A stretch of 64,000 nucleotides of DNA from Shewanella gelidimarina. Lineage in GTDB: Bacteria; Pseudomonadota; Gammaproteobacteria; Enterobacterales; Shewanellaceae. The notes beneath the pieces were generated by a model. It worked only from the letters and a program-made list of their open reading frames with translations, searched no databases and was not told the DNA's origin. A program made the position numbers and the translations under genes. Of this stretch, positions 42,823 through 56,628 are shown piece after piece. Numbering within the stretch: position 1 is the first letter of the stretch; each line of letters begins with the position of its first letter. The stretch is taken from contig NZ_JAKIKW010000005.1 in NCBI RefSeq assembly GCF_023283945.1, positions 62,001-126,000 on the forward strand, written 5' to 3'.

Positions 42823-43671
42823 TTAACCTTTTGTAGAAGCAAGAGTTGCAGCTACTTCAGCAGCAAAATCTTCTACTTTCTTCGCGATACCTTCGCCAAC
42901 TTCTAAACGAACGAAGTTTGAAACAGAAGCGCCTTTCTCTTTAAGAATAGTGCCAACTGTTTTCTTAGGTTCCATGATGTAAGCTTGGCCAGTAAGAGAT
43001 ATCTCACCAGTAAACTTCTTCATACGACCTAGAACCATTTTCTTAGCAATCTCTTCAGGCTTGCCTTCGTTCATAGCGATTTCGATCTGAAGTGCTTCTT
43101 CTTTTGCAACAAGAGCAGCAGGAACATCTTCAGGGTTAACGAATTCAGGCTTTGAAGCAGCAACGTGCATTGCAATGTGCTTTAGAGTCTCTTCGTCAGC
43201 TTCACCAGCAACAACAACACCGATGCGCTCACCGTGACGGTAAGTAGCAAGGTTTGCACCATCAATGTACTCGATACGACGTACATTGATGTTTTCACCG
43301 ATCTTAGTCACAAGTGCAACACGCGTTTCTTCAAACTGTGCTTTCAATTCTTCGATAGTCACTTTAGATGCAGCAGCAACTTCTAGAACAGAGTTAGCAA
43401 ATGCTAGGAAGCTTGCGTCTTTTGCAACGAAGTCAGTTTGACAGTTAACTTCTAAAAGTGCAGCGAAACCTTCGCCATTCTTAATAAGAATTGTACCTTC
43501 AGCAGCGATGTTACCCGCTTTTTTAGCAGCCTTTGCAGCACCGCTCTTACGCATTGCATCAATCGCAAGCTCGATGTCACCATCAGTTTCAGTCAATGCT
43601 TTCTTACAGTCCATCATGCCAGCGCCAGTGCGGTCACGAAGTTCTTTAACTTGGGCAGCAGTAATTGCCAT
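42823..43671 (-). CDS. tsf: Elongation factor Ts
   Basis: Guanine-nucleotide exchange factor for EF-Tu; 282 residues. The N-terminal UBA-like domain [19 protein letters not shown], the core [16 protein letters not shown] near 80 (the TDFV EF-Tu contact), and a C-terminal coiled-coil/dimerization part are visible. Follows rpsB by about 120 bases with a hairpin between, the standard operon. Confidence 0.97.
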
Positions 43672-44518: not shown

Positions 44519-44625
44519 TTTATTTACCTTTAAATAATTTGGGGGTTAGACCTCCACATATCCCATATCTTCGACCCGGTTAAGGGCACCCCGAAGAACG
44601 TGTCGATATGTGTGTGATTTAGTAT
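44519..44625 (-). ncRNA. rpsB mRNA leader (S2/t44-type autoregulatory element)
   Basis: The minus-strand leader contains TTCGGGGTGCCCTT, ACCGGGTCGAAGAT, and TGGAGGTCTAACCCCCA just before the rpsB ribosome binding region (AAAGGTAA). This order resembles the S2 leader (t44 RNA) of gammaproteobacteria as I recall it; the GGAGGT...ACCCCC part can form a stem near the start site. In that system S2 binds its leader and lowers translation. No covariance model was run; the 5' boundary is approximate. Confidence 0.62.
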
Positions 44626-44763
44626 TTAGCATTAGCCATGTATAATGGCGGCCAGATTAACGCTTTGCTTCCCACATGAAGTGGAACGTCAAGAGTCAAC
44701 CATAACGGCGCGCTTTATACCATATTTAGAAAAAAAGCACAAATATTTGCGGAGTTTTTGCGG

Positions 44764-53571: not shown

Positions 53572-54585
53572 ATGACTGAAATAACGACCCTTAGCCAATT
53601 TCTTAAAACGGCAAAAACCCAATTCCAAGTTTATGATATGGGCCGTAGAGTTCAACATATCGATATGGTGGCGTTTCAGCAAATTGAAGCGTTACTCACG
53701 CCTTATCCCTCTCCAATTCAGGGACATGCTCAGTTTGCGATTGTCTTTTGGGATGCAAGCCAACAACACTACATTTGGTTTATAAAATTAGCGCTCGATG
53801 AACGTGGCTTGCTTTCACCAGCGCCGCGAACTCAATTCATCAAGATGATAATTGAAGCCTTAGGCAGAGACCCCACCCAACCTTTAACCGACCACCAGCA
53901 AGAGCAACTCGCTAACCACCCTTTTAACTTTAAGCCTTCTCAAGAAAAGTTAGCCGTATTTAACGCGTTAGTGCGACAGCAACTCGGTGAAAAAGCCTCT
54001 AGCCAATATGAATTTGCCCATCAATATTTATCTGGACAACATCCAGCTGAAAACTGGCAAAGCATTGGAATGCAGGGCATTGCAGATGTTTGTGTTAGAG
54101 CGGCTGAACTTGATCATCAACAGCATATTAATGCCAGTTTCGATCGCGCAGCTGTAGAAGTACAAATTGCTATGTGCCAGTGCCTAGAGCACTTAACTAT
54201 CGATGATGCACTCGCAACACAACTTTTCGAAAAGTTTGCTGCAGCTTCCACAGAAAGCCAAGCTTACCTTTTAAGGGCATTAGCATCTCACCCTGAGCAG
54301 AGCCAGCAGGCAATCGCGTATTTGGCCAGCTGCAATGGTTTATCTGCAGATATGTTGATTACCATTGCTGCTCGTAATTGGTCAGCGTTAAAAGATGAGC
54401 CAACTCTCAGTATCTACTTAGAAGCACTTGCCAAACAAGAACAACACTTCTTTAACCAGATTTTTGCTGATATTGTGGCTATTCCATTAATTCGCACACA
54501 ACTGTTAACTCAATTGCGAAACCCTAACCGAAGTGCAGCACTTTCTGCAGCTATTGGCGGCTTATTTAAGGTAATTAAAGCATGA
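53572..54585 (+). CDS. DUF3549 family protein
   Basis: A 337-residue cytoplasmic protein of a family of unknown function found in Shewanella, Vibrio and relatives. The N-terminal ~110 residues have mixed strand/helix character (QVYDMGRRVQHIDMVAFQQIEALL). From about 150 the sequence is helical and repeat-like (hydrophobic 30-40-residue units including YEFAHQYLSGQ, IAMCQCLEHL, YLLRALASHPEQ), suggesting a HEAT-like solenoid (inference). No catalytic motif was recognised. Its stop overlaps the start of the DUF3301 gene (ATGATG region), so the two are translated together. Confidence 0.82.
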   Translation: MTEITTLSQFLKTAKTQFQVYDMGRRVQHIDMVAFQQIEALLTPYPSPIQGHAQFAIVFWDASQQHYIWFIKLALDERGLLSPAPRTQFIKMIIEALGRDPTQPLTDHQQEQLANHPFNFKPSQEKLAVFNALVRQQLGEKASSQYEFAHQYLSGQHPAENWQSIGMQGIADVCVRAAELDHQQHINASFDRAAVEVQIAMCQCLEHLTIDDALATQLFEKFAAASTESQAYLLRALASHPEQSQQAIAYLASCNGLSADMLITIAARNWSALKDEPTLSIYLEALAKQEQHFFNQIFADIVAIPLIRTQLLTQLRNPNRSAALSAAIGGLFKVIKA

Positions 54586-54980
54586 TGACAGATTTCTTAT
54601 TAATCGTAGCGGTAGTTGTTATCGCGGCCTTTTTTTGGCAGTTAAGGCAAATGGCAGAAATGAGCCGTACTTTTGCGACCAAAGAGTGCCAAAAACAAAA
54701 GGTACAACTGCTTGCCATCGCTCAGGAAACAGCAAAACCAAGCTTCGGGGGCAGTACTGGTTTCACTTGGAAAGTAAAATATCTATTTGAATTTAGTACC
54801 GATGGCATTAATCAATATAGCGGAAGCTTGTGGATGCACGGTAAAAAAATCCACAAAGTACAGTGGCCTATTTTTCCAGAACCTGAATGGCATGATGCAC
54901 CAGAATCTCGTGGGTCTGTCGGCGGAAGCTGTGGTGGTGGTCGCTCTAAAAGCAATTGTAGTTCTGGTGGGTGTAAGTAA
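54582..54980 (+). CDS. DUF3301 family membrane-anchored protein with Gly/Cys-rich tail
   Basis: A 132-residue protein with one N-terminal helix (FLLIVAVVVIAAFFW), then a basic cytoplasmic or periplasmic domain (TFATKECQKQKVQLLAIAQ; FTWKVKYLFEF) typical of DUF3301. It ends with a low-complexity tail rich in Gly, Ser and Cys (GGSCGGGRSKSNCSSGGCK). Overlaps the DUF3549 gene by four bases. In related genomes these two genes accompany yqcC-truC; function unknown. The three cysteines in the tail could bind metal or be lipidated, but this is speculation. Confidence 0.82.
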   Translation: MMTDFLLIVAVVVIAAFFWQLRQMAEMSRTFATKECQKQKVQLLAIAQETAKPSFGGSTGFTWKVKYLFEFSTDGINQYSGSLWMHGKKIHKVQWPIFPEPEWHDAPESRGSVGGSCGGGRSKSNCSSGGCK

Positions 54981-55058
54981 CCAGACGGAGAGCATTCCCG
55001 GTCTAGGTTAAACAGTACCCATTGCCTTCATCTTTGCGCTAAAGCACAAATTGCGGAC

Positions 55059-55092
55059 AAAGAAAAAGCGCGGCTCCATAGGAGACGCGCTT
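55059..55092 (-). terminator. Terminator of the first Csr RNA
   Basis: AAGCGCG-T-CTCC and GGAG-C-CGCGCTT form an 11-pair stem with a single internal mismatch and TAT loop, followed by TTTCTTT on the minus strand. Confidence 0.88.
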
Positions 55093-55482
55093 TCGCTATT
55101 TCTTTTGTAAGCTCATCCTGCTATTTTAATGCTCCTTGCACCATCCATGCGTAACTGTGCTCCCTGCGTCGTCCATGTGTCCTTTTCTTTCCTTGTATCT
55201 TTCGATACTCATCCCTGCTACTCAGTAATCCTTTTACTAAGCTTGCTCATCCTAAGCGTGTCCAATATCATCCTTGAGAATCCATTCATTCACTATCCGT
55301 AGCATCCTACCTTCCTAGGTAGTAAAACTTTCCATCCTGGAATGTTTAACCACTCCTTGGTCGCTCTGGCAATCATTCCTTGAAAGCCTCGTCCTTGATA
55401 GTTATCCATATTAAGTGCGGATCCTTCCGTCACTCTCAGATCATCCTAATCTGTAAATCCTTTCTGTCATGCTTCCTTGCAC
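55059..55482 (-). ncRNA. csrC: CsrB/CsrC-family CsrA-sequestering small RNA (promoter-proximal to DUF3301)
   Basis: About 425 nt, minus strand. I counted roughly 28 GGA motifs, many as AAGGAT, CAGGATG or TTAGGATGAG and several inside short hairpin loops (for example TTCCAGGATGGAA, CTACCTAGGAAGGTAG). It ends in a strong intrinsic terminator. A TATTAT -10 box lies at 55489-55494 and a GacA-type palindrome about 169 bases further upstream. This is the known architecture of RNAs that titrate the translational regulator CsrA/RsmA. Shares GCAGGGAGCACA with the second RNA. The csrB/csrC naming is arbitrary here; the 5' end is estimated. Confidence 0.85.
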
Positions 55483-55651
55483 AATCAAATAATAAACTAA
55501 AACCCGATAAAAATTGGCTCAAGAAGCAACATTTAACATGCAGTCACATTTTAGTCATACAACAATAATTACGTAAACTGCTGTTTAAAAAGTGATTTAA
55601 CTAAATACTCATTCGTTACCGGCAAGTAATCAGCCTTATTTCGCACGAAGC

Positions 55652-55669
55652 TGTAAGAGATCTCTCACA
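55652..55669. promoter_or_regulatory. GacA/UvrY binding site upstream of the first Csr RNA
   Basis: TGTAAGAGATCTCTCACA, an 18-bp near-perfect palindrome matching the GacA upstream activating sequence (TGTAAG-N6-CTTACA). Its centre is about 169 bases before the -10 box, the distance expected for CsrB-type promoters. Confidence 0.85.
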
Positions 55670-55694
55670 TCAATCCGAGCAATTTATCAAAGAT

Positions 55695-55724
55695 AAAAGA
55701 AAGGGCGTACCTTTCGGTACGCCC
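55695..55724 (-). terminator. Terminator of the second Csr RNA
   Basis: GGGCGTACC-GAAA-GGTACGCCC: nine-pair stem with GNRA tetraloop, followed by TTTCTTTT on the minus strand. Confidence 0.92.
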
Positions 55725-56115
55725 TGATCTAGCTTCTTTTTAGCTTTCCCGCTATATATGTGCTCCCTGCATCATCCTTGCTTAACGTGCATCCTGCATC
55801 TTCCTTGTAAGTCCTTTTATATCCTTGTACTCAACGTACTAAATCCATTTATTAGCTTATCCTAAGCCAAAATCCTCATCCTGAGGTTGTCCTAGTTGCA
55901 TCCTGCAAATACCTAACTGTTTAATAAGGTTAGCCTTAACTATCAAGCATGATTTTAGATATGGCTAAAATATCTATATACAATCGCTGCTAACTTATCC
56001 TTAAACTAGCAGCTGGCCTATCCACTCACTAAATATTTAAACTTGAGAATCGAAACGGTAATGATGATGTATAGCGAAATCTATCACTCACAAGGCTTAC
56101 CAATTGATTACTTGA
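55695..56115 (-). ncRNA. csrB: CsrB/CsrC-family CsrA-sequestering small RNA (distal copy)
   Basis: About 420 nt, minus strand, separate promoter and terminator. About 15 GGA motifs, concentrated in the 3' two thirds: TTGCAGGATGCAA, CCTCAGGATGAGG, GCTTAGGATAAGC and TGCAGGATGCA each place AGGAT in the loop of a short hairpin, exactly as in CsrB. The candidate -10 TATAAA is at 56122-56127; a GacA-type palindrome lies about 167 bases upstream. Expected to be induced by BarA/UvrY (GacS/GacA) and to sequester CsrA. The 5' ~70 nt lack GGA motifs, so the start could be slightly downstream. Confidence 0.85.
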
Positions 56116-56282
56116 ATTAACTTTATACGCTTATCAGTCCAGTGCGACTGTCTTTTAGCAAACACCCAAGCTTGTAACATTTATGCAACTTAAGGGGTTT
56201 TTTATAACGTACTGATTATAATGAACTAAGACTGTCAATAGTGACTATATTAATAATATTGCCATTTGATGTCCCACATAAA

Positions 56283-56300
56283 AGTAAGAGATCTCTTACG
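56283..56300. promoter_or_regulatory. GacA/UvrY binding site upstream of the second Csr RNA
   Basis: GTAAGAGATCTCTTAC is a perfect 16-bp palindrome (in AGTAAGAGATCTCTTACG) with the GacA-box core, just beyond the stop codon of the Mpo1-like gene. Spacing to its -10 box equals that of the first site within two bases. Confidence 0.85.
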
Positions 56301-56325: not shown

Positions 56326-56628
56326 TTATCTCTTCTTGCCTGAAAAGGCTTCAAATAACATCACCCAATCAGCCATTAAACTATAAATGGGATATTTAAA
56401 TGTCGCCGGTTTGTTCTTTTCAAATACAAAGTGTCCAATCCAAGCAAAACTATAACCAATGACGGGTAACAAACATAACAGTAACCATTGCCCTGAATAG
56501 AGCGCGAAAATAGTCACTAAGATAACCAGAGAGCTACCGATATAGTGCAGCGCTCTGCACGTTATATTTTGATGTTGCGACAGGTAAAAGGGATAGAATT
56601 CAGCGAAATTACTAAAACGTTTAGTCAT
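56326..56628 (-). CDS. Mpo1-like (DUF962/YGL010w) membrane protein
   Basis: A 100-residue integral membrane protein. The N-terminal FAEFYPFYLSQHQNITCRALHYIGSS and the later FAWIGHFVFEKNKPATFKYPIYSLMADWVML contain the conserved histidines (HQN, LHYIG, GHF) of the DUF962 family. The yeast member Mpo1 is an Fe(II)-dependent 2-hydroxy fatty acid dioxygenase. Whether the short bacterial proteins share that activity is not established for this organism. It overlaps the acetyltransferase gene by eight bases. Confidence 0.82.
   Translation of the reverse strand: MTKRFSNFAEFYPFYLSQHQNITCRALHYIGSSLVILVTIFALYSGQWLLLCLLPVIGYSFAWIGHFVFEKNKPATFKYPIYSLMADWVMLFEAFSGKKR

Follow-up and report, generated by a model that had tools for sequence, protein, structure and literature searches.

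A tandem pair of csrB-type RNA genes between the DUF3301 and Mpo1-like genes of a Shewanella genome

The 1.3-kb gap between the DUF3301 and Mpo1-like genes holds two csrB-type RNA genes, both on the minus strand. We consider it very probable (roughly 96%) that this is the Shewanella csrB1/csrB2 locus: two paralogous tandem RNA genes, activated by UvrY and ending in their own terminators, whose products titrate CsrA. In the window (the whole 64-kb stretch of DNA analyzed) we found two motif-rich, conserved RNA genes with boxes, a characteristic promoter spacing and terminators, and the genome encodes CsrA, UvrY and BarA. Transcription, UvrY binding and CsrA titration in this genome are predictions from sequence. 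The initial annotation offered the locus as new, but the pair was already known: the available text of PMC3171408 credits its prediction in Shewanella to Kulkarni in 2006, and that paper itself demonstrated it in S. oneidensis MR-1 in 2011 through Northern blots and dependence on UvrY. What is added here is comparative detail. In the part of PMC5471319 available to us, CsrB is mentioned only in the introduction and in one reference title.

Two motif-rich RNA genes on one strand

The features of the region are as follows.

54582-54980: DUF3301 gene (Pfam)
55060-55093, minus strand: intrinsic terminator of the downstream RNA, a stem with two-sided changes in relatives
55060-55482, minus strand: downstream csrB-type sRNA gene, about 423 nt, 28 GGA and 17 AGGA, both ends predicted (RF00018 match, motif excess, conserved GGA)
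55489-55494, minus strand: predicted -10 element TATTAT of the downstream RNA, from its spacing to the box
55652-55669, minus strand: putative UvrY/GacA box of the downstream RNA, one mismatch to TGTAAGN6CTTACA, from position and conservation
55698-56115, minus strand: upstream csrB-type sRNA gene, about 418 nt, 15 GGA and 11 AGGA, both ends predicted (RF00018 match, motif excess, conserved GGA)
55702-55725, minus strand: intrinsic terminator of the upstream RNA, a 10-pair stem with 7 G-C pairs followed by TTCTTTTATC
56122-56127, minus strand: predicted -10 element TATAAA of the upstream RNA, from its spacing to the box
56283-56300, minus strand: putative UvrY/GacA box of the upstream RNA, core palindrome GTAAGAGATCTCTTAC, two mismatches to the 18-mer
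56326-56628, minus strand: Mpo1-like gene (Pfam)

The interval originally proposed, 55059-56115, lies close to the RNA ends that we predict, and its description as non-coding holds: it contains just three open reading frames of at least 40 aa (46, 57 and 62 aa), none gene-like in our judgement, which was made independently of homology searches. About 215 nt separate the two RNA genes. Their 3′ parts are paralogous, with a local alignment score of 76 (the largest of 300 shuffles reached 29). As predicted, the upstream RNA begins with 92 nt that lack GGA and are poorly conserved, so the RNA could start at a point further inside.

About 28 and 15 AGGA/GGAT motifs had been counted in the two blocks. 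These numbers stand as minus-strand counts of GGA, 28 in the lower block (the downstream RNA) and 15 in the upper one; counted as AGGA or GGAT the motifs number 22 and 13, and as strict AGGA 17 and 11. In 1000 dinucleotide shuffles, AGGA averaged 5.6 with a maximum of 13 for the lower block and 3.5 with a maximum of 9 for the upper. Scanned in 10-nt steps on either strand, the two blocks are the AGGA-richest 420-nt stretches of the window, and the third-ranking stretch has 4. The claim that many motifs sit in hairpin loops is borne out by minimum-free-energy folds: hairpin loops hold 10 of the 28 GGA in the lower block and 5 of the 15 in the upper, above every one of 100 shuffles each (mean 1.6, maximum 6, and mean 0.6, maximum 3, respectively). 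Fully unpaired GGA number 17 and 10. Both RNAs carry many GGA or AGGA motifs, a good share of them looped or single-stranded.

The Rfam CsrB model (RF00018) matches both blocks on the correct strand, the upper at 55693-55974 (67.5 bits, E 1.6e-17) and the lower at 55057-55362 (46.9 bits, E 2.7e-11). Each match spans the whole model (1-356) and covers approximately the 3′ two thirds of the predicted RNA. The covariance scan suggested in the initial annotation therefore finds CsrB in both blocks, but neither score reaches the gathering score of 71 bits. Despite these scores, the motifs are retained in close relatives. At Rfam gathering thresholds, the whole window yields only t44 RNA (RF00127, 75.9 bits) at 44545-44634; it lies on the minus strand, and a tsf-like frame follows about 0.9 kb downstream.

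Low scores are the norm in the genus. All 60 genus genomes searched, the window's included, match RF00018 at E 0.01, and only one exceeds the gathering score. In a family-level set, 35 of 40 genomes match and 6 exceed it; the five lacking a match belong to other genera. Shewanella accounts for 17 of these 40 genomes (10 also belong to the 60-genome set), and one of the 17 exceeds the gathering score. Among 14 control genomes, matches appeared in one in the 60-genome search (E 0.01), in two in the family search and in eight in the window-genome search (E 10). The gathering score reflects a curator's choice, not a biological trait, and most of the genus falls short of it. Reading the motifs alone found a real global-regulator locus that this cut-off misses in 59 of the 60 genus genomes, and annotation based on the cut-off would leave csrB unannotated in those genomes.

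Conservation and gene neighbourhood

Each RNA was aligned across nine chosen loci, a subset of those in the same part of the genus as the window. Invariant GGA sites number 15 of 28 in the downstream RNA and 12 of 15 in the upstream RNA. Among trinucleotides with at least eight occurrences, GGA has the highest invariant share in each RNA. Its lead is narrow in the downstream RNA (0.54, next to 0.50 for TAC) and clear in the upstream RNA (0.80, next to 0.50 for GCA). The GGA sites are kept while the spacers between them drift and take indels. Two-sided changes are few, at 10 of 84 predicted pairs in the downstream RNA and 3 of 48 in the upstream, terminator stems included.

The gene neighbourhood is conserved as well. 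Both flanking genes lie within reach at 22 of 35 loci (two of the 22 from the same genome), and all 22 gaps contain at least 38 GGA. The csrB region is flanked by DUF3301 and Mpo1-like genes in four Shewanella records (L041, L043 S. pneumatophori, L056 S. fidelis and L075 S. xiamenensis); in S. subflava (L082) we found Mpo1, and neither DUF3301 nor a qualifying box. The locus in the window shares this conserved neighbourhood with csrB regions of its genus, in keeping with csrB1/csrB2; for MR-1, the available text of PMC3171408 refers to SO_1615 and SO_1617 by gene number, and these may be the same two flanking genes.

By Rfam matches alone, leaving aside 3 of 103 rows that were under 150 nt, 32 of the 60 genus genomes have two genes within 1.5 kb on one strand and one has three in tandem. 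In six genomes the two genes are more distant or sit on different contigs or strands, and 21 have a single match. The window's own genome, with its two genes, is counted among these 21, so Rfam alone undercounts the pairs.

Several loci depart from the common arrangement. One (L149, G042:C1:1275800-1279600) has three tandem csrB-type genes between its Mpo1-like and DUF3301 genes, and a UvrY box goes with each; by eye, frames read across the second and third copies are almost the same, as if recently duplicated. At two others (L150, 2027-3292, and L151, 1935-4104) the csrB genes are separated by other genes, an Nramp-type transporter in one case and a pair of genes for GGDEF diguanylate cyclases in the other. 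In a close relative (L162, 2390-6215), about 3.8 kb separates DUF3301 from the downstream csrB, and by eye this insert holds a CxxCH-rich, multihaem-cytochrome-like frame and a MarR-like frame; DUF3301 is shifted by a similar distance in another relative (L163). The Mpo1-like stretch of L008 (2148-2447), as cut, has an in-frame stop.

Promoters, terminators and regulators

Both genes have a predicted UvrY/GacA box upstream of the promoter. A match to the box is not evidence on its own, and we rejected it as such: the window has 4 sites with at most two mismatches to TGTAAGN6CTTACA where 3.1 are expected, and the core occurs 25 times genome-wide against 15 for its reverse. Because match numbers are so near chance, the evidence for the boxes is their position and conservation. 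A further box-like site at 42992-43007 lies inside the tsf-like reading frame and was set aside. The distance from box center to predicted start is 178.5 nt for the downstream RNA and 176.5 nt for the upstream RNA, the same to within 2 nt. When the two upstream regions are aligned locally, the box core also gives the top match, by a slight margin (score 27, against 26 for the largest of 300 shuffles). Genome-wide, two of the 25 box sites lead into GGA-rich sequence, with 15 and 28 GGA, and both are at the csrB pair; the remaining sites have at most 11 GGA downstream (with 3 AGGA).

The same layout recurs in relatives. Boxes followed by a GGA-rich stretch were present at 29 of 34 loci, giving 49 boxes, which come from related loci and hence are not independent. 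Behind them, -10-like hexamers peak at box+172, with 56 hits per 7-nt bin (median bin 10); a second, smaller peak lies at box+78 (37 hits). GGA density climbs from offset 175-200. As the boxes were chosen for downstream GGA, this rise is partly built in, which does not apply to the -10 peak. We saw no good -35 element at either RNA gene, which may be expected of an activated promoter.

Each block had been said to end in a strong terminator, and this stands. The upper one was picked up by a pattern scan as 10 pairs followed by TTCTTTTATC, and one of its pairs varies two-sidedly across the nine loci (UA in five, CG in four). The lower one (55060-55093) is absent from the scan list; it nonetheless forms an evident stem followed by a T-rich tail, and its pairs co-vary in relatives, GC in five and AU in four at one pair, and CG in five, UG in three and UA in one at another. 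Both RNAs have a Rho-independent terminator at the 3′ end.

The cognate regulators are encoded in the genome. There is one CsrA (102.8 bits, cut-off 70.1), one protein above the cut-off of PRK09483, which we take to be the UvrY model (417.6 bits, cut-off 280), and one above that of PRK11107, presumably the BarA model (1351.3 bits, cut-off 890). For each of the latter two models, E. coli was the only one of 14 control genomes above the cut-off. A third csrB-like gene was looked for and not found: a whole-genome Rfam search added a single match, and a weak one (13.8 bits, E 0.26), and no further box site precedes a GGA-rich stretch. This absence is weak evidence, since a divergent RNA lacking a box would escape, the assembly has 77 contigs, and the Rfam search also omitted the downstream RNA found by the local scan.

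Taken together, the Rfam matches, the boxes with their -10 spacing, the conserved GGA and the CsrA, UvrY and BarA genes make a CsrA-titration module of two CsrB-type RNAs, as initially proposed, the best reading. The BarA kinase would lead to phosphorylated UvrY, which would bind about 177 nt upstream of each start and switch the gene on. Each RNA would end at its own terminator, and its GGA motifs, in loops and single-stranded stretches, would bind CsrA dimers and pull CsrA off its target mRNAs. In S. oneidensis MR-1 the csrB RNAs drop over 100-fold when uvrY or barA is mutated, according to the available text of PMC3171408, and the antagonism of CsrA by csrB RNAs has been shown genetically in that species (PMC3171408, PMC11045786, each in part).

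Two other readings compete with this one. The AGGA motifs could simply reflect purine-rich sequence, or a small coding gene, and have no CsrA function. The strand is indeed purine-biased and carries the three small frames of 46-62 aa, but the motif counts exceed all 1000 dinucleotide shuffles, GGA sites are kept while their spacers drift and take indels, and the Rfam model matches both blocks; we give this reading next to no chance. Alternatively, the upstream promoter could read through its terminator to make one RNA of about 1 kb with more than 40 GGA, the downstream box being secondary. The genes do share a strand across a gap of about 215 nt, and longer forms exist in S. oneidensis, where csrB2 gives Northern bands of about 450, 600 and 700 nt (PMC3171408, available text). 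Against this, the upstream RNA has a strong terminator kept with a two-sided change, the downstream RNA has its own box and -10 element at the same spacing, and the S. oneidensis pair, with a transposase gene between its members, is transcribed separately according to the same text. A single long transcript therefore seems very improbable, and two separately controlled csrB genes remain our preferred reading.

Motif imbalance and comparison with known systems

Across the nine aligned loci the upstream RNA has 14-18 GGA and the downstream RNA 22-28 (15 and 28 in the window). We asked how general this is in 35 loci: exactly two qualifying boxes are present at 20 (including the window's own locus), three at L149, and one or none at 14. 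By GGA, the downstream RNA is richer at 15 of the 20 two-box loci, the upstream RNA at 4, and one is equal; by AGGA, the downstream RNA is ahead at 7, the upstream RNA at 9, and 4 are equal. The GGA difference reaches at least 9 at five of the 20 (L001, which is the window, L003, L004, L016 and L025). Marked imbalance is confined to the window's lineage (and L025), and the tally led us to reject it as a genus-wide rule.

The initial annotation took the differing motif numbers to suggest unequal strength or timing. This fits the S. oneidensis copies, where the available text of PMC3171408 puts the MR-1 csrB2 level at 3-10 fold that of csrB1 and reports that, in complex medium, only csrB1 varies with growth phase. 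Any role of motif number in this would be hypothetical, and the imbalance in number is not shared across the genus. The motif-rich downstream RNA might do nearly all of the titration while the upstream RNA mainly answers another signal, which would refine the preferred reading rather than rival it. In favor are the unequal counts here and in the aligned loci, the differing level and growth-phase response in S. oneidensis, and the larger increase of PubA by CsrB2 than by CsrB1 (PMC11045786, in part). On the other side, the 20 two-box loci show no such rule by GGA or AGGA, and either RNA in trans restores siderophore synthesis to the S. oneidensis double mutant (PMC11045786, in part). We hold this division of labor to be possible but on balance doubtful. 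It is less likely still that in this lineage one copy has become a weaker CsrA sponge (about 15 sites) and the other a stronger one (about 28), the geometry of the UvrY boxes being the same for both and titration proceeding in two steps, while other lineages kept near-equal copies and one has three in tandem. The imbalance in one lineage, the triple copy and the genes beside or between the copies form a natural series for studying sponge dosage.

Compared with the RF00018 CsrB/RsmB family (E. coli CsrB type), the RNAs described here have the same 3′ region and terminator layout and align to the whole model; they differ in scoring under the gathering cut-off and in occurring as two side-by-side copies. 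The available text of PMC3171408 names another pair, RsmY and RsmZ of Pseudomonas. These two sRNAs are likewise driven by GacA and titrate a homologue of CsrA, as proposed here, but they are shorter, have fewer motifs and lie at separate loci. The Vibrio csrB siblings, for example csrB1-4 of V. tasmaniensis, are also several duplicated, differently regulated paralogues, and csrB3 of A. salmonicida adjoins csrB2 much as in the tandem pair here, although most siblings lie in separate synteny groups (PMC6262261, in part). The closest counterpart is in S. oneidensis MR-1, where the available text of PMC3171408 describes csrB1 of 420 bp and csrB2 of 421 bp, with many AGGA/ARGGA motifs, UvrY boxes upstream and RNAs of about 450 nt on Northern blots. 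The window likewise has two csrB genes of about 420 nt with many motifs and a UvrY box upstream of each, in a genome with BarA, UvrY and CsrA. Unlike MR-1, which we compared through its published description and where a transposase gene intervenes, the pair here is adjacent, as are csrB1 and csrB2 in S. putrefaciens CN-32 (PMC3171408, available text).
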